NCBI GenBank assembly: GCA_001795385.1
Contig: MGOU01000008.1
Span: 1-56,045, forward strand
Source: Clostridiales bacterium GWD2_32_19
GTDB lineage: Bacteria; Bacillota; Clostridia; Lachnospirales; UBA12420
Reading direction: 5' to 3'
Length of the DNA: 56,045 nt
A model generated the notes under the pieces. The model did not search any database. It was not told the origin of the DNA and saw only the letters and a program-made list of their open reading frames with translations. The translations under genes were made by a program, and so were the position numbers. Positions 4,010-16,448 of this stretch are shown in pieces (positions within the stretch are counted from its first letter, which is position 1; the number at the start of each line of letters is the position of its first letter).

Positions 4010-4068
4010 TTTTTTCACCACCTTTCGTTGATTGTTAATATTTAAAGTTAAAATTTTATATCTTTTAT

Positions 4069-4101
4069 GGGGACAGTTCCTAAAAAGAAGGAACCGTCCC
4101 C
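4069..4101. repeat. REP hairpin, copy 2
   Basis: A 33-bp palindrome GGGGACAGTTCC / GGAACCGTCCCC, followed by a T-run on the plus strand. Identical to the copy at 4759-4791. Confidence 0.85.
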
Positions 4102-4129
4102 TTTTTCTCTACCTCACTCTATTCTTTTA

Positions 4130-4162
4130 GGGGTCGGTTCCTTCTTTTTAGGAACTGTCCCC
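4130..4162. repeat. REP hairpin, copy 3 (inverted)
   Basis: GGGGTCGGTTCC / GGAACTGTCCCC in the opposite orientation to copy 2, separated from it by 28 bp. The pair forms a BIME-like doublet at the 3' side of the RAYT gene. Confidence 0.85.
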
Positions 4163-4172
4163 ATATATTAAC

Positions 4173-4733
4173 CTAACAATCCATAACATTATCATTAGAC
4201 AAATTATGACTAAACCTTATAAACTCTTTTCTTGCACATATAACATTCGCATGTATGATTTTAAATATATCCCCTGATTGTATAAAACTACTATCACTTA
4301 GATATTCTGAAATGCTACTCCATTTATAATCGTCTGCTTTATTTACTATCCCTGCTTTGATTGGATTATTATGTAAGTATCTAATGACCATTAATAAATA
4401 TCCCTCATCTTCTATAACTTCACTCTTAAATCTATCTGCAAATAAATGTCCTACCCTCTTATATTTCTTATTAAAATATCCCACATAATTCACATTAATA
4501 CTTTTTATCAGTTCTGAGATACTAGTTGTATTTTCCTTTACTATCATATGTACATGATTATCCATTAAACAATATGCATATATAATACTATTGGTTTTTA
4601 ATATCTTTTCCCGTAATATTTTTATAAATTTGTACTTATCTATTTCATCAATAAATATATTTTTCTTTTCATTACCGCGTATCATTATATGATATATTCC
4701 TGTAGAACTTATTTCTCTTCTTTTCCTAGGCAT
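4173..4733 (-). CDS. REP-associated tyrosine transposase (RAYT, Y1_Tnp)
   Basis: A 186-residue single-domain HUH endonuclease of the IS200/RAYT (Y1_Tnp) superfamily. The HUH metal-binding motif is MDNHVHMIVKE around residues 57-67. The catalytic Tyr region is GYFNKKYKRVGHLFADRFKS, followed by the family signature YLHNNPIKAG and YKWSS. RAYTs nick and join REP hairpins as single-stranded DNA. AGGAGGG precedes the ATG. The gene is tightly flanked on both sides by REP hairpins of one family, which supports a cognate RAYT-REP pair. It lies between the giant secreted protein and the pilin-like genes and may separate genes that were once adjacent. The reading frame and motifs look intact. Confidence 0.93.
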   Translation of the reverse strand: MPRKRREISSTGIYHIMIRGNEKKNIFIDEIDKYKFIKILREKILKTNSIIYAYCLMDNHVHMIVKENTTSISELIKSINVNYVGYFNKKYKRVGHLFADRFKSEVIEDEGYLLMVIRYLHNNPIKAGIVNKADDYKWSSISEYLSDSSFIQSGDIFKIIHANVICARKEFIRFSHNLSNDNVMDC

Positions 4734-4758
4734 GTTTCCCTCCTGTATATTCTTTTAT

Positions 4759-4791
4759 GGGGACAGTTCCTAAAAAGAAGGAACCGTCCCC
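4759..4791. repeat. REP hairpin, copy 4
   Basis: A 33-bp palindrome identical to copy 2, immediately after the stop codon of the giant secreted protein and followed by the RAYT gene. It may double as that gene's terminator, although the T-run lies on the plus strand. Confidence 0.85.
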
Positions 4792-4798
4792 TTTTTCT

Positions 4799-7700
4799 CT
4801 ACCTCACTCTATATACGCCTACATCATCTAGTGCTCCATTGGTCGTGTAGTTATAGCGTATTACATCACCTATTTCATATGGTGTTTTCGGTGTTATTCT
4901 TTCTATTATCCAGTTGCCTGTATTATAGTTGTAAGTTTCTGTTGTTTCCTTTTCTGCTACTATTTCAAATGCTACTATAATATCTTTTTTTAGGTTACTG
5001 TCATTTATAGTTTTAGGTATGTAGCCTTTTGGTACTGCAAAGGCTGTTGCTGGGAGTAAATATTCACCCCTCCAAACCGCTTCTGTTTCATTTATAGTTA
5101 CTCTATTGTTGCTATCTAACATGAGTTTCGAGTACTTGCTATGTGCATTTTCTCCTGCTTTATATATCTGATGTTCTGAGTTTATCCAGTACACATCTCT
5201 TTCTAAATTATCCCTTACATCACCACTTATCGTATAAAAATGTGGCACTATTCGTATCTTATCATTTGTTTCATTTAAGTTATTACTATTTATCTTGAAT
5301 ACCAACTTATACCCTTTAGTTACTGGTATTCCTCCAAAATTTATTTTGTCTATAGCCATAAGATTTACTCCCATATCTATCTCTTTTGACTCATTATTTA
5401 CTGGATTTATATAATAATTTGCGAGTTTAGTATCTTTTAGCTCTGCTACTCTAAAGTTTGATAGAGTTGACTCGTTTTGTGGCATTTTATCTGCGAAAGA
5501 CGCATATTCTTTTTTGCAAATTAGCTGTCCTGTTCTCTTTGAATATACATTCACAGTATATTTGATTTCTCCTGTTTTTTCAGCTGGTATAGTAAAGTTT
5601 CTAGTGTATATGCCTCCACCTACATAGTTTAGCTGATTTTCTCCTAACCCCAGATCTATACTTTGTGTTTTCACAAGCATATCATCATGATTTACACCGT
5701 CTAAGCCCGTCAGAGTCACATTTATCGGTATGCTTCCTCCTGACAAAAAGCCTTGTGTTGTCTCAAATTGATATGATACATAATTGTTCGTATTATTTGT
5801 AGTATAAATTTCCTTTACATTCGTGCTTTTTCCTTTTGTACTTGTTATATCATATTTATTTGTTGCTGATAGTCTAACTGTTATATTTTTATCTTTCTCT
5901 AAATTTATGATTGGTTTAGTTAGAACCTGTAAGTTAAAATCTATTTCATTTGTCCTCTGTTCTTTGTCATTTGTTATTTGTACCGTTCTTATTCCACTTG
6001 AGCTATATAACAAAGAATTGTACGCATCATCATTCCATTTTATATCTGTATTTACTGACACACACTCACTACCTACATTTCCTTTGTACACATAGTTAGT
6101 CACATTTTCACCTACTACAAAATCAAAGTCCACGCTAGGCGAATCAAGCAATAAATAGTCTTTTGAAATGCTTGTCGAACATCCTTGCAAGTCCCAAACT
6201 GTAAGCTCATAGTCTGTTATATTCCTTCCTGCTTTTATAACCTCTATACTCTTTAGTTCTTCACCCTCACCTGCGTCAATCCATGTTTCCTGCCCACTAA
6301 CACTTCGAACTAGATATCTCCATTTATACTTAGCTATACCGTTATTGTGTGCATACTGCATGTCTATATCGTATGAACCATTATCATTTAGGGTCAAAAT
6401 CGTAGCTGTTTCTGTATTTGAAAACTTTGGAACAGGTGGCTTGTGTATATAGAATGATACTTCTGTTGTATCTTTTTTATCAAATAAAGGGTTACCCGTA
6501 TCATCATAAGCTTGTAGCTTCGCCTTCCACTTACCACGCATATCATCGTTGAGAGATCCCATCAAATATTTGTTTCCTAGTAAATCAGTTATGATTTGTT
6601 TTCCGTTTAGTCCGTCATATTTACTTGAAACCGCATTATAAACCCCATTATTTGCTGTTTTATATACAGTAACAGGATTATGCCATACACTTGGGTCATG
6701 TTCAAATGTAACTTTTAATGTACCTTCTTTTTCATTTTTTATAGATTCAAACAACATACCATTAATCTTTGTTATTTTGCCTTCCATAGTATAGGAATCG
6801 CTGAGCTTATAGTCTTTTTCCTCATCATAGAAAGTTTTTATACATTTAAGTTCATCACGGCTTATAGCAAAATATGCAGTATTAGTAATTGATTTTCTAA
6901 TGTCTATGTAATTAGTAACTTTGTTCGCTGACTCGCTAATATTTGCCGTATTTAAGTTATAATTATCTTCCGCAGTTAATCCAGCAAAATCAGAAACTAG
7001 GGATCTTATAATAGTATTATTAGTGTCACTTGCGTATATTCCCAACTGCCTTTCTGTAATAAGAGGTTTTATAACAGTTATAAGTGCTTGATTATCAGCA
7101 TTGTCGTCAATTTTTATATTATTATCTAAAAATATTACTCTTGTTCCATTATTTCCTGTAATAGGCATGCCTGAAATATTTTCTTTTAAATTTGCTAGTA
7201 TCTTTCTTATCGTTATATCTCCCACATCGGCTTTGTTGTATACTCCATTACTTGTAGTAGCTGTAACAATAATATTTTTATATATACCTTCAGTAAAATC
7301 TTTTGTGTTAAAGTTTAAATTAAAAGTCGCATTACTCGGGTTCGTAAATGTTTGTTTTACAAGTTTATTTCCTATTTGACATCTTACCCAAACAGTTCCT
7401 TGTCCTGTTACTGTACCCCTAACTGAAAAGTTAGTATTATCTCCATATTTATTATCTTGTGGAGTTAAGTTTATTACTGGTAAATCCCAAGCCGGCATTT
7501 TCTTTCCGCTGTACGCAATATAGCCTCCCATAGAATAAAGTGTTGTTCCAGATGAGACTCCGTCCTTATCAACTACAGTTTCCCCATCTCCACTTGAAGA
7601 AGCTCTATATAGCATCGTTTTACCTAAAGGGTTATTAAAAGTAGAATTTTTCACCCAAAATATATAGTCATTTAATAAATTATAATTTTGTATATGTCCT

Positions 7701-10700
7701 TCATCCCCATCTACCGAGTCATAATCCCTATCAGTTGCAGTTAAGGGTATTCTATATAGATGGTCTTGTCTACTTGTCTGACCGTAAAAGTACATATATC
7801 CTCTGTATCCTGTAAGATCACTACCGTTTCGATCAACCATATAGCTATTCTTTTCCTTCATTATATCATATTTATATGGCTGTTTATCTCTTGTATACAA
7901 CAGATATTTATCTTCAACATCTAGTGAAGCATAATCATATGATCCACCTGCAATAGATTTAATATGAGTATCCCAAAATCCACCTTCAGTAAAATTAAGA
8001 ACCGGTATATCAACATTTATTCTAGTTATATCATACCTTTTTGATGAACTGCTTCTTTCTTTGTACATTCTCCTAAAATAAAGATAATTGTCTTTAACTG
8101 CAAACCCATATAAACTATGCAAATAGTAACTAGTTGAAAGAGAAAGAATCTGTTGCGCCCCTGTACCATCTACTTTTATCTTCCATATAGATTTTTCTGA
8201 GTCAAAGTAAAACCATCCATTCACTAAAGATATTTGACCACTTGACGAAACTGGAAGACTACAAACTAATGTATCTTCGTCCCATGTCCCTATTCTAAAT
8301 TTTCTTATACTGCTCCCACTCGTATAATACATCCATCCGTCTTTCTGTGTATACATACCGCCCATTTGATAATTACCGCTTGTATTTCCTACTGTATACC
8401 CGTAGGGACTAGACGAATATTCTTCCCAAAGATTTGTATCTTTCGAAGTAATATTTGATAAAATCTTACCAGAATCAAATTCTTTTTTAGCTAATCTTGT
8501 TTTAAACACTCCAAGTAAGCTGGGTTCTATACTCGAATAATAGCTTATGTTTGTTTCATTTTGCAGATACAATTCTATTATACTATCTTTTTCTGTCTCT
8601 GCAGATAAGTTAGGTGTCAAATTATCTATGTATATATTTTTATTTAGGTTATCCATTGCTAAAATATTGGCTGATAAAATAGGTACTGCTGATAAGTTTC
8701 CTTCTATATAATTAGGGTATATAGGTTTTTCAACAGCTTCTAACTCAAAATGAAGCTTGCCAAATAAATTTCTGTTTGTATTACTTATCTCTATTATAAT
8801 TTCCGTAATGTTTTGTCCAACCGATTTACTAATAACTCTAAATACATCCTCTTCATTTACTTTTTGTAATTGATTTGTGTCTTTCGTTATTAGCATATTA
8901 GAGTATATGCTATCATTCGTTACATCTAAATCTCCATTATCATCATAGCTCATGTATAAGTTTATATCTCCTATTTCATCATCTAGACTCGCATAATTTA
9001 CTCTTATTTTAAATCTAGAGACGAGATCATCAGGATTTCTATATATACTCCACATATTGACTGTATTATTATAGTATTTACTCGTACTATAGTAATTTTC
9101 TACATTATCCTTTTCCATAGCTATTATATCAAAACTATTTATAACAGGAGCTTGGTCAGGCGCAACATATATAGTATTGTAACTAGACCAGACACTTGTT
9201 TTGTAATCGTTAGTGACTTTGTTTCTAATCCTGTAATAACCACTCGCATCAAACCTTGCATAATGAACTGCTGTTCTTGTAACATCTCCCCTAAGCGTTA
9301 TCTTGTCAGACTCTCTTATAACTTTTGACTCATCTGCAAACTTTATCGTTGGAAGTCTTGATACATCAAGTGCTCCCCCTGAAGTAACTGGCTGTATTTC
9401 TACAGCAGTAAGAGAACTGCTATAATTATTAGGAGCATAAGCTAAAACATCATCATCTGTAAGTATATCTGAATAGTTTGTATCTATTTTTATTTTCTTA
9501 TATTGTTTATATTCTTTACTTGTATATCTATTAGGCTCTTCTTTAAGCATACTTATTTTATTTCCTGCTACTGGTCTGATTTCTTTTGTATCTACATCTG
9601 CAATATCTTCTGCAGAAGCTCTCTCGCCACTATAATCCCATGTTCTTACACTTATTGTAACCTTTTTATTTACAGGGATTTTTAGATTTACTGTTTTACT
9701 ATCACTGTATCCTTCAAAATCTCCCGAATCTTCTCCCACTACATATTTCGCTCCATCTATAATCCTCCACCCATTAAGCTCATAATTAGAACTTGCACGA
9801 AAACTGAATGTAGCATCGGCTGTATTATATATTTCAAGAACGGATACTGGAGCATCTATATCTCCTGTTGCTTTCAAAGTGCTCTCTTCTTCAGGTTCCT
9901 CTCCTTTTACTATTTTAAAAGAAACTGCATCAGATATTTTCTTCCCACCTTCTAAGGTAATATCTATTTGATATTGATATGTTCCGATAGGTTTGTTTTT
10001 TAAATTATATTCATCATTTGAGTCTGTTCCTGTGAAAACTATTGCATTTGTTTTTAGGTCTTTTATTTTCAAATCTATTATGTCAAGATTATCATAATAA
10101 CTTTTATCAACCAACATTAAATTCATAGTGGTACCAAGAGTATAAAATTGATAACCATCTTCTTCATGTACTGTTGATTCCTCTGCATCCCTTACCCCTA
10201 AACTTGCTATTGGATTAGCAGGCTTTTTCACCTCGTAGAAGCTTGTTATATAGATGTTTGGATTATATGTACCAGTAGCTCCAAAATCAAAACCGACAAT
10301 AGATTTTGAAGTGATATTAATAAAACTTTCCTTTATACTATCTGTATAACTAGCTCTTAGGCTTTTAAATGTTCTTGTACTGCTTGTATAATCATCAGCA
10401 GTAAGCGTTTTATTTGTATTTATTCCTGCAACTATTACCTCATCCCTGGTGGCAAAAGGAATTGAATCATATATTGTCTGTCCTTCCATATACTGACTAT
10501 ATATATAATGTATATAATGAGGTACCATCTCAGGAGTAAAGACTTTTGAAATATTATAATAAGTTTTCAAATCCGTTATAGCAGTACCACTCCATGCTAC
10601 CGCTCCAGCAATAGATGAATAAGAAAAATGTAATCCCCCCGTTGTTCCAACAAGTTGCCCTTTGCTATCCATATTAAGAGCTCCGTTGTTAGTGTTTGCA

Positions 10701-11194
10701 TAAGCATAGTCATAAACTCCGTTACGCACAACCGTTTGAACTGCATCTATATAAACCGTTCCACCTCTAAACATATAATTAATTATCTTTTTATCCTCAT
10801 TGTCAGGATTGTTTATATCTCCACCACTACCAAATCCGCGACAAAGCGTTTCAAGAATCGCACTATATTCTCCCCTAAAAGGTATCTCTCTAATTATCGT
10901 TCCTGTTTGTCCGCCGTCGTTCATAGGGTAAATCATCTTGTAATCATCACTCGTTTTACCGTTCCCGTTTACATCAAATGAAATCTGCCACCCTAGTGTA
11001 CGATATTTAGTACCACCTGTTCCAGCAGTAGCTGTTGTTATAAACTTAAGATATTGAACACCATCCTTAACAGGAACCGATACACGCTCATCTACTCCTG
11101 CTTCTCCGAATACATTTTTGAATGGAATTAATATAACCAGATACATAAACAAAATAAAACAACTTATTATTATTTTTCGCCTCTTATTACTCAA
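4799..11194 (-). CDS. Giant secreted multi-domain surface protein
   Basis: About 2131 residues. The N-terminal signal peptide has Arg/Lys residues (NKRRKIIIS) then a hydrophobic core ending near FGEAG. An N-terminal domain (to about residue 330) is followed by several Ig/fibronectin-like beta segments. A repeated Trp/Tyr-rich stretch at about 945-1235 has units such as GWFYFDSEKSIWKIKVDGTG and resembles the beta-propeller of DUF5050-type proteins. More Ig-like segments follow to the end. I see no LPxTG, SLH or cell-wall-binding repeat, so it is either released or held by a partner; the SLH protein directly upstream is the obvious candidate. The start is most likely TTG 11194: GGAGGTG sits 6 nt upstream and overlaps the GTG at 11203. 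Adhesion or surface-appendage function is inference. Confidence 0.85.
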   Translation of the reverse strand: MSNKRRKIIISCFILFMYLVILIPFKNVFGEAGVDERVSVPVKDGVQYLKFITTATAGTGGTKYRTLGWQISFDVNGNGKTSDDYKMIYPMNDGGQTGTIIREIPFRGEYSAILETLCRGFGSGGDINNPDNEDKKIINYMFRGGTVYIDAVQTVVRNGVYDYAYANTNNGALNMDSKGQLVGTTGGLHFSYSSIAGAVAWSGTAITDLKTYYNISKVFTPEMVPHYIHYIYSQYMEGQTIYDSIPFATRDEVIVAGINTNKTLTADDYTSSTRTFKSLRASYTDSIKESFINITSKSIVGFDFGATGTYNPNIYITSFYEVKKPANPIASLGVRDAEESTVHEEDGYQFYTLGTTMNLMLVDKSYYDNLDIIDLKIKDLKTNAIVFTGTDSNDEYNLKNKPIGTYQYQIDITLEGGKKISDAVSFKIVKGEEPEEESTLKATGDIDAPVSVLEIYNTADATFSFRASSNYELNGWRIIDGAKYVVGEDSGDFEGYSDSKTVNLKIPVNKKVTISVRTWDYSGERASAEDIADVDTKEIRPVAGNKISMLKEEPNRYTSKEYKQYKKIKIDTNYSDILTDDDVLAYAPNNYSSSLTAVEIQPVTSGGALDVSRLPTIKFADESKVIRESDKITLRGDVTRTAVHYARFDASGYYRIRNKVTNDYKTSVWSSYNTIYVAPDQAPVINSFDIIAMEKDNVENYYSTSKYYNNTVNMWSIYRNPDDLVSRFKIRVNYASLDDEIGDINLYMSYDDNGDLDVTNDSIYSNMLITKDTNQLQKVNEEDVFRVISKSVGQNITEIIIEISNTNRNLFGKLHFELEAVEKPIYPNYIEGNLSAVPILSANILAMDNLNKNIYIDNLTPNLSAETEKDSIIELYLQNETNISYYSSIEPSLLGVFKTRLAKKEFDSGKILSNITSKDTNLWEEYSSSPYGYTVGNTSGNYQMGGMYTQKDGWMYYTSGSSIRKFRIGTWDEDTLVCSLPVSSSGQISLVNGWFYFDSEKSIWKIKVDGTGAQQILSLSTSYYLHSLYGFAVKDNYLYFRRMYKERSSSSKRYDITRINVDIPVLNFTEGGFWDTHIKSIAGGSYDYASLDVEDKYLLYTRDKQPYKYDIMKEKNSYMVDRNGSDLTGYRGYMYFYGQTSRQDHLYRIPLTATDRDYDSVDGDEGHIQNYNLLNDYIFWVKNSTFNNPLGKTMLYRASSSGDGETVVDKDGVSSGTTLYSMGGYIAYSGKKMPAWDLPVINLTPQDNKYGDNTNFSVRGTVTGQGTVWVRCQIGNKLVKQTFTNPSNATFNLNFNTKDFTEGIYKNIIVTATTSNGVYNKADVGDITIRKILANLKENISGMPITGNNGTRVIFLDNNIKIDDNADNQALITVIKPLITERQLGIYASDTNNTIIRSLVSDFAGLTAEDNYNLNTANISESANKVTNYIDIRKSITNTAYFAISRDELKCIKTFYDEEKDYKLSDSYTMEGKITKINGMLFESIKNEKEGTLKVTFEHDPSVWHNPVTVYKTANNGVYNAVSSKYDGLNGKQIITDLLGNKYLMGSLNDDMRGKWKAKLQAYDDTGNPLFDKKDTTEVSFYIHKPPVPKFSNTETATILTLNDNGSYDIDMQYAHNNGIAKYKWRYLVRSVSGQETWIDAGEGEELKSIEVIKAGRNITDYELTVWDLQGCSTSISKDYLLLDSPSVDFDFVVGENVTNYVYKGNVGSECVSVNTDIKWNDDAYNSLLYSSSGIRTVQITNDKEQRTNEIDFNLQVLTKPIINLEKDKNITVRLSATNKYDITSTKGKSTNVKEIYTTNNTNNYVSYQFETTQGFLSGGSIPINVTLTGLDGVNHDDMLVKTQSIDLGLGENQLNYVGGGIYTRNFTIPAEKTGEIKYTVNVYSKRTGQLICKKEYASFADKMPQNESTLSNFRVAELKDTKLANYYINPVNNESKEIDMGVNLMAIDKINFGGIPVTKGYKLVFKINSNNLNETNDKIRIVPHFYTISGDVRDNLERDVYWINSEHQIYKAGENAHSKYSKLMLDSNNRVTINETEAVWRGEYLLPATAFAVPKGYIPKTINDSNLKKDIIVAFEIVAEKETTETYNYNTGNWIIERITPKTPYEIGDVIRYNYTTNGALDDVGVYRVR

Positions 11195-11224
11195 AACAAA
11201 CACCTCCGTTCCAGCTATAAATAA

Positions 11225-12557: not shown

Positions 12558-13388
12558 TCAGCCTACTTTTGACTCTTCATTTTTCTTATTTAGAACCCTT
12601 GTTTCATTTATATGGTTCCTTACTATTAAATGTATTGATGCTCTACTTAAATTAAACACATATGCAATCTTTATTGCAGATACTTTTAAATTTATATATA
12701 GTTTTACAATTACTTTATTTCTTAGTATTTTATTTTTTTCTATTTGAGTCAAACTGATATTATTAATCTTTAAAAATCTTTTAATTTTTGTGTTTTCCTC
12801 TTTGTCAATTTCATCCTTCTCTTTCCTAATATCCATATCATAATTTCTTATTGCTTTTTTACTAAGCACAACAAACTCTTTTCGTGCCGTTTTTGTGTCT
12901 GGACTTATTATCTTTAATATTGTTTCAACATTTACCATCCCACTTTTATCATTTGTATATTCTGTAAAGCTACTCCATTTGTAGTCTTCAATCTTTTCGA
13001 CATTCCCTGCTTCTACAGGATTATTATGAATATACATTATACTAGTAAGTAAATATTCATCATCTTCAATCGGTTTACTTTTGAATCTGCCTTGAAATAA
13101 GTGCCCTACTCTTTTATATTTTTTGTTATAGTAACACACATAGCTTATACACATCCTTTTCATAACATCAGCTATACCTCTTTTTCCTTCCTTTATTATT
13201 AAATGTACATGGTTTTCCATCAAGCAATACCCATATAATTCAGAGTCTGTTTCCGCTATCTTCTCTTCTAGAATGGATACAAACTTATTCATGTCCTGAT
13301 CATCTAAAAATATATTTTTCTTATATTTACCACTTATAATTATATGGTATATACCTGTAAAACTTCGCTTTCTCTCGCCTCTTGCCAT
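12558..13388 (-). CDS. RAYT-like transposase with C-terminal HTH extension
   Basis: 276 residues. The first ~165 form a Y1_Tnp/RAYT domain with HUH motif CLMENHVHLIIKE, Tyr region YYNKKYKRVGHLFQGRFKS and IHNNPVEAG. The last ~100 residues are Lys-rich and end in a helix-turn-helix-like segment (VSAIKIAYVFNLSRASIHLI) absent from the RAYT at 4173-4733; DnaA-type C-terminal helices occur in some such proteins. ATG 13388 follows GAGGGGTG at good spacing. Over the shared part it resembles the first RAYT but is clearly diverged. Only a half-REP (AACTGTCCC near 13427) is nearby, so its cognate repeat is unclear. It ends about 28 bp upstream of the SLH gene. Confidence 0.9.
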   Translation of the reverse strand: MARGERKRSFTGIYHIIISGKYKKNIFLDDQDMNKFVSILEEKIAETDSELYGYCLMENHVHLIIKEGKRGIADVMKRMCISYVCYYNKKYKRVGHLFQGRFKSKPIEDDEYLLTSIMYIHNNPVEAGNVEKIEDYKWSSFTEYTNDKSGMVNVETILKIISPDTKTARKEFVVLSKKAIRNYDMDIRKEKDEIDKEENTKIKRFLKINNISLTQIEKNKILRNKVIVKLYINLKVSAIKIAYVFNLSRASIHLIVRNHINETRVLNKKNEESKVG

Positions 13389-13603
13389 ATTATCACCCCT
13401 CGTATACAACATAATAACTGTCCCTAATGTAATATTTTGTTATTAATATATTTTTCCACATTTTATCACCTTTTTTTATCTCTGTCTACAAAGCTTTAAT
13501 AAAGTGTATGCTTTTGAAAGTGAACGGTATGAGTTTTTCTCAATATTGCATTTAACTGTAGAAATAGTGCAGTTTATTAAAACTTTTCCTATTTAAATAT
13601 TTC

Positions 13604-16260: not shown

Positions 16261-16293
16261 GGGGGCGGTTCCTTCTTTTCAGGAACCGTCTCC
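16261..16293. repeat. REP hairpin, copy 5
   Basis: GGGGGCGGTTCC TTCTTTTCA GGAACCGTCTCC: same family as the hairpins flanking the RAYT at 4.1-4.8 kb, 12 kb away. Confidence 0.85.
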
Positions 16294-16381
16294 ATGAAAC
16301 AAAAATAGTAGAAAACATCAATCTTAGCCAAGATATAAAGGAGTATAACACAAAAGTTTACTGATTCAAAGCTTAATTAAT

Positions 16382-16412
16382 GGGACAGTTCCTATAAAGA
16401 AGGAACCGTCCC
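16382..16412. repeat. REP hairpin, copy 6
   Basis: GGGACAGTTCC TATAAAGAA GGAACCGTCCC, in opposite orientation to copy 5 and 88 bp from it. It lies just downstream of the gerB-type gene and may serve as its terminator. Confidence 0.85.
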
Positions 16413-16448
16413 TAAAAGATATAAAAAGCTAGCACCAGTATTTTACTT

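Follow-up and report, generated by a model that had tools for sequence, protein, structure and literature searches.

TIRYT/TIRtron elements encode a RAYT-related Y1 transposase and carry terminal inverted repeats of the form GGGGWSAS (Di Nocera et al. 2013, PMC3733652). They probably correspond to subclass 2.1 of PMC6006769, for which REP-like structures were not found. As known so far, TIRYT elements comprise transposase genes and terminal repeats with no assigned structure. REPtrons, the RAYT/TnpA-REP systems, are said to lack movement as a unit (PMC6006769), and REPINs are dispersed inverted pairs of hairpins (Bertels and Rainey 2011, PMC3116915). In P. fluorescens SBW25, tandem REPINs are duplicated together with flanking sequence, so that duplication with flank is known in principle (PMC3116915). 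The locus described here bears on how REPs spread and on whether RAYT units move or are domesticated. In three related genomes, one site is seen empty, occupied, and occupied with an extra copy of one end.

The window, the whole stretch of DNA analyzed, is a complete contig of 56,045 bp from a 1.97-Mb draft genome of 47 contigs (G000). Two further genomes of the same genus, G001 and G002, were compared with it. Near the start of the window, two stretches of 62 bp lying 690 bp apart in direct orientation match at 62 of 62 positions (Table 1). Each contains the 33-bp hairpin GGGGACAGTTCCTAAAAAGAAGGAACCGTCCCC, at 4069-4101 in the left-hand copy (A) and at 4759-4791 in the right-hand copy (C), together with the 14 bases CTACCTCACTCTAT, which at 4799-4812 form the last 14 bases of a giant surface-type gene, stop included. 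An inverse hairpin (B, 4130-4162) lies between the copies, with arms 4066-4102 (at A) and 4129-4165 (at B) being 97% complementary to each other, and is followed by an intact RAYT gene with HUH and Tyr motifs (4173-4733). The original prediction, made from the letters of the window, had described this arrangement correctly, including the placement of the true gene end in the right-hand copy; the giant gene, put there at 2131 residues, computes to 2134 from its GTG start. Copy A also terminates in TAAAAGA (4061-4067).

Table 1. Coordinates of the RAYT locus and of a REPIN within the window
Feature	Position	Strand	Remarks
Mobile unit (inferred): left-end hairpin C, RAYT/TIRYT gene, right-end hairpin B	4130..4791	-	Same site in G001, absent in G002; ends match the two REPIN ends
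RAYT/TIRYT gene (HUH-Tyr Y1 transposase), 186 aa, without C-terminal extension	4173..4733	-	Pfam Y1_Tnp, E=6e-16
Hairpin C, left end of the unit	4759..4791	-	About 25 bp upstream of the RAYT start; inner flank CATAAAAGAATATA
Hairpin B, right end of the unit, inverse of C	4130..4162	+	10 bp downstream of the RAYT stop; minus-strand outer flank TAAAAGA
Copy A, 62-bp duplicate: hairpin C, 14 bases of the giant-gene end, 9 bases of inner flank	4061..4122	-	G000 only; found in neither G001 nor G002
Source of copy A: hairpin C and the true end of the giant gene	4751..4812	-	G001 has the gene end only at the equivalent position
TAAAAGA (TCTTTTA on +), outer flank of B	4123..4129	-	Copy A inserted at its end
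Giant surface-type gene, 2134 aa from GTG; last 14 bases duplicated in A	4799..11203	-	No Pfam match
Non-autonomous REPIN, two inverse hairpins (16261-16293, 16381-16413) with ~87 bp between	16261..16413	+	Absent at the homologous place in G001

The hairpin recurs along the contig. Allowing up to two mismatches, GGGGACAGTTCCT matches 12 times in the window against 0.16 matches expected, which excludes chance, and a degenerate member of the same family lies at 156-188 near the contig start, adjoining an MgtE-type transporter gene. The original prediction had overlooked this degenerate copy, the REPIN at 16261-16413, and a second RAYT-like gene. The two strands of hairpin C, folded singly, gave -12.8 and -10.7 kcal/mol, and no shuffled sequence was equally stable. 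B and C each keep the same 33-bp core in G000 and G001. A search of G000 for further instances of the 62 bp together with its flank found none that extend beyond the hairpin region. A role for hairpin C as terminator of the giant gene was rejected on reading the minus strand, where a T-run is absent after the hairpin.

The transposase retains its catalytic residues. The HUH motif (H60-V-H62), Y119, and P124 are invariant across 10 relatives, N123 is nearly so, and the YxxxNP motif is present. Against the NCBIfam model REP_Tyr_transpos (NF047646) the protein scores 70.2 bits, under the cut-off of 80, and against the IS200 model (NF033573) 18.9 bits, far under the cut-off of 55. The G000 and G001 proteins are 87% identical, with 0.33 of synonymous sites differing; the dN/dS of 0.16 indicates that the gene is under purifying selection. 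Most relatives span 247-274 aa, some with weak helix-turn-helix matches, compared with 186 aa in the window. A second RAYT-like gene (12558-13412, minus strand) encodes 284 aa and is 54% identical over the shared part. It lies upstream of an SLH-domain gene and the giant gene, and in both G000 and G001 these two genes are bracketed by the two RAYT-like genes. Terminal repeats were not found for this second gene in G000, and it was rejected as a partner with repeats on that ground; its G001 copy retains one GGGGACGGTTCT upstream.

Comparison of the three genomes gives the order of events. Over the last 400 residues compared, the giant gene is 69% identical in G001 and 62% in G002. In G002, its stop lies 24 nt from the next gene, with hairpin and RAYT both absent. 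In G001, the RAYT occupies the same gap and is flanked by hairpins B and C only; copy A and the duplicated tail are absent, leaving A in G000 alone among the three same-genus genomes. Because C holds the true gene end, as in G001, A is the copy, and because G001 has the RAYT with B and C but without A, the duplication postdates the RAYT and was not what brought it there. The mobile unit thus consists of B-RAYT-C, whereas A arose afterwards as a local copy of C, 62 bp long and including host flank. The unit itself is present in two of the three genomes (G000 and G001), a sample in which gain versus loss is a matter of parsimony. Two other readings of the repeats were rejected: A and C are not the ends of the mobile unit, which exists in G001 without A, and A is not a target-site duplication, since it is a hairpin-bearing copy of C and C is common to G001. 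As none of the 62 sites differs, nor any of the 29 that lie outside the core, the copy would be young, at less than about one-tenth to one-quarter of the age of the G000-G001 split, provided that the flanks evolve at the synonymous rate and that gene conversion has not intervened.

These comparisons bear on what the original prediction had made of the locus, namely a recent or still-mobile unit in which the flank was copied along with the hairpin. The copying of flank with hairpin holds, and the copy is young and confined to G000; the 62-bp repeats are not the ends of the unit, given the G001 unit without A. The empty site that it had suggested looking for in relatives is present in G002, and the duplication is not common to all relatives, as A is absent from G001 and G002. 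When an IS200/IS605-style target tetranucleotide and cleavage sites were sought, the empty sites in G002 and G001 proved to have diverged too far for base-exact ends, and a clear target duplication was not seen.

Beyond this locus, the hairpins track the transposase gene, a covariation on which the proposal of recent mobility had been made to depend. With at most one mismatch, G000 has 20 occurrences of the hairpin core and G001 has 21, and the 54 other genomes, G002 included, have none; the RAYT orthologue is found in just the two genomes with hairpins. Many copies in G000 and G001 form inverted pairs (REPINs), mostly 116-124 bp apart, whose two ends are not alike: an inner flank like CATAAAAAACAAA characterizes the left end, and a conserved outer flank, AAAAGAYATAAAA, the right. 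The flank of C is of the left-end kind and that of B of the right-end kind, so the RAYT unit can be read as a gene-containing REPIN. Sites in G000 and G001 were compared by searches and sequence stretches in draft assemblies. Among ten G000 sites outside the RAYT locus, nine are without the repeat in G001, and one REPIN (C23:31577) is shared. Both flanks align at five of the nine repeat-free sites (C8:16259, C13, C19, C21:133577, and C45); in the weaker cases (C30, C15, C5, and C23:55079), one flank only is traceable or synteny is broken. At the REPIN in the window (Table 1), some 30-35 bp beyond each hairpin are likewise missing in G001, and either the flank travelled along or the place has changed since. 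The family thus occupies largely different sites in the two sister species, which makes its dispersal recent enough to study. A second intergenic repeat (TTGTCATTGCGAG, GAAGCAATCTC, GGGGAATT...ACCC) adjoins several of the G000 hairpins (L013, L017, L019, L020, and L003).

We also sampled 80 loci of relatives, mostly from Clostridia. A GGGAC-type motif is present on both sides of the gene at 62 of the 80, and its density falls from 4.1 per kb near the gene to 0.28 per kb past 1 kb, a difference of about 14-fold. Using a simple script that tolerates a mismatch, stems of at least seven pairs around GGGGAC were found upstream in 34 of 56 cases and downstream in 34 of 54; the shuffle control, applied to the upstream side only, returned 6%. 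Two of these GGGGAC-enclosing hairpins were folded separately, and one was stable relative to shuffles and one was not. The stem sequence varies among relatives, and hairpins enclosing GGGGACGGTTCT commonly end their units. Taken at the level of sequence, the relatives suggest that a TIRYT end is a hairpin enclosing a conserved motif. The hairpin in the window differs in that its stem is built from the motif, GGGGACGGTTCC pairing with its inverse, an arrangement that could have arisen if an inverted pair of ends collapsed, like the pairs beside the C33 paralogue and in L155 or L184. Syntrophomonas wolfei subsp. methylbutyratica carries two hairpin-bounded units of 902 bp that are 99.8% identical and have different flanks, besides many single hairpins, which indicates that such units can move whole. 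The relatives argue that TIRtrons differ from REPtrons and bear signs of movement as a unit.

G000 also encodes a RAYT of 233 aa at L077 (G000:C33:9955-10755) that is 61% identical and has GGGGACGGTTCT-type hairpin ends of its own. A few paired copies of this type occur at C19 and C25, and the motif is all but missing in G001 and does not occur in G002. The homologous gap holds two small genes resembling, by eye, a HicB/HicA pair in G001 and a different RAYT in G002.

Duplication of an end is not confined to copy A. On contig C23 of G000, a gene tail, left end, and inner flank stand in tandem as a 161-bp unit whose joint shows a 3-nt microhomology (TAT). In relatives, ends recur next to the unit together with the last bases of the transposase gene at L126 and L149, and without a gene tail at L120, L127, and L144. 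The direct repeats in the 80 relatives thus include end duplications, none of them quite like copy A. In these relatives, right ends are also trailed by additional copies of the same end that shorten step by step (L126, 3752-3880; L149, 3744-3890; L127, 3242-3310), with TCCCCTGTTCCG repeated in L149.

We consider it likely that 4130-4791 is a compact, hairpin-ended mobile unit near the TIRYT/TIRtron type, with the ~155-bp REPINs as its non-autonomous relatives and copy A as a by-product. Reading the minus strand outward from B gives CCCCTAAAAGA, ATAGAGTGAGGTAGAGAAAAA, the hairpin, CATAAAAGA, and TATAAAATTTT, in that order, and the inserted segment is what lies between the ends of the two TAAAAGA 7-mers, so that each breakpoint of A is marked by TAAAAGA. 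Before the split of G000 and G001, the B-RAYT-C unit would have inserted between the giant gene and the pilin-like genes, as the occupied and empty sites indicate, or G002 may have lost it. By analogy with E. coli TnpA-REP, the transposase would presumably nick and rejoin single-stranded hairpins, and this activity may have spread the REPINs, many of them after the species split, as the compared sites attest. Later, and in the G000 lineage alone, 62 bases, running from 14 inside the giant gene through C to TAAAAGA, were copied outside B and landed directly past B's own TAAAAGA. Pairing of B and C into a 37-nt stem would place the outer edge of B beside the outer flank of C, and during replication the new strand could slip back to the gene tail, re-copy C, and return via the shared TAAAAGA. 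Because of the 37-nt B/C pairing and the return breakpoint, which shares 7 bp, this double template switch appears the likeliest mechanism, with about an even chance of being correct; the outgoing breakpoint, with essentially zero microhomology, counts against it.

Template switch, strand transfer, and tandem duplication with deletion are all compatible with the present data. A product of the transposase itself, in which cuts within the gene tail and past TAAAAGA released a single-stranded 62-nt piece carrying C that was then joined behind B's TAAAAGA, would accord with the intact catalytic residues, with the dispersal of hairpins since the species split, and with a donor 3' end and target both cut after TAAAAGA. 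However, the donor 5' cut (GTAT/ATAG) would mismatch the target (AAGA/), unlike IS608-type chemistry, the copied piece has one end hairpin only, and dispersed left ends begin at GGGG without a common outer flank, so we regard this route as somewhat unlikely. Direct repeats of 7 bp bounding a hairpin-flanked segment are a usual substrate for deletion, and a 690-bp tandem duplication from gene tail to right end, followed by loss of the RAYT and right end between the TAAAAGA repeats, would arrive at the identical final sequence. That course is unlikely: it requires two events and a lost intermediate, and the tandem form is absent in the three same-genus genomes. Misassembly from the exact 62-bp repeat comes to mind in a 47-contig draft, where such a repeat near hairpins is hard to assemble, yet copy A has unique sequence on the pilin side and a specific junction into B, which makes an artifact extremely improbable. 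A different challenge concerns the unit rather than the copy. The RAYT could be a domesticated, vertically inherited host gene that was lost in G002, with the REPs as static host elements; its shared position and purifying selection in G000 and G001 would fit, and TnpA-REP has been called domesticated in the literature. The repeat-free state of nine of ten compared sites in G001, the lack of any such REP in G002, and the relative with two near-identical whole units make domestication highly unlikely.

Returning to the mobile unit itself, we tentatively propose that TIRYT elements may be truly mobile, hairpin-ended insertion sequences with a conserved GGGGACGGTTCT in the loop. The window's element would then be a derived form that doubled the motif to make it palindromic, lost the C-terminal domain, and gave rise to a REPIN family. 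If true, the locus would capture a step in the passage from an insertion sequence to a REP-RAYT system, and local duplication of an end with host flank would be a regular by-product.

Set against known systems, the unit shares with IS200/IS605 elements a Y1 HUH-Tyr transposase between end hairpins but is single in G000 and in G001, and the IS200 model score is far under its cut-off. As in REPINs, inverted hairpin pairs form the dispersed unit; they differ from REPINs in sequence class, in their length of ~155 bp, and in having unlike left and right ends, and, in contrast to SBW25, one end only was copied in the window, to the far side of the transposase gene. In REPtrons too, inverse hairpins enclose an HUH-Tyr protein belonging to the same superfamily, and dispersed copies covary with the gene. 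However, the GTAG / GT[AG]G tag is absent at A, B, and C and is not conserved among the hairpins listed, and the REP_Tyr_transpos score falls under its cut-off (70.2 against 80 bits). The name REP used in the original prediction is therefore not strictly apt, as the GTAG tag is missing and the hairpins resemble TIRYT/TIRtron terminal repeats. With TIRYT/TIRtron elements, the unit has in common a RAYT-like Y1 transposase with HUH and Tyr motifs, inverted terminal repeats that resemble the GGGG type, and copies dispersed singly and in pairs. Read inward, C gives GGGGACGG and B gives GGGGTCGG, each differing from the motif GGGGWSAS by one base; both hairpins carry GGGGACAG, which fits GGGGWSAS, on their inner arm, and most relatives read GGGGACGG. 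The unit departs from the described TIRYT/TIRtron elements in that its ends are 33-bp palindromes and that both occupied and empty sites are seen. It departs from subclass 2.1 in that its 186-aa protein is without the C-terminal helix-turn-helix extension, and, contrary to the report on that subclass (PMC6006769), hairpins around the motif are common in the relatives sampled here. Because the C-terminal extension is missing, we assign no subclass and do not claim membership in subclass 2.1; judged by its sequence, the element appears to be a variant close to the TIRYT/TIRtron kind.
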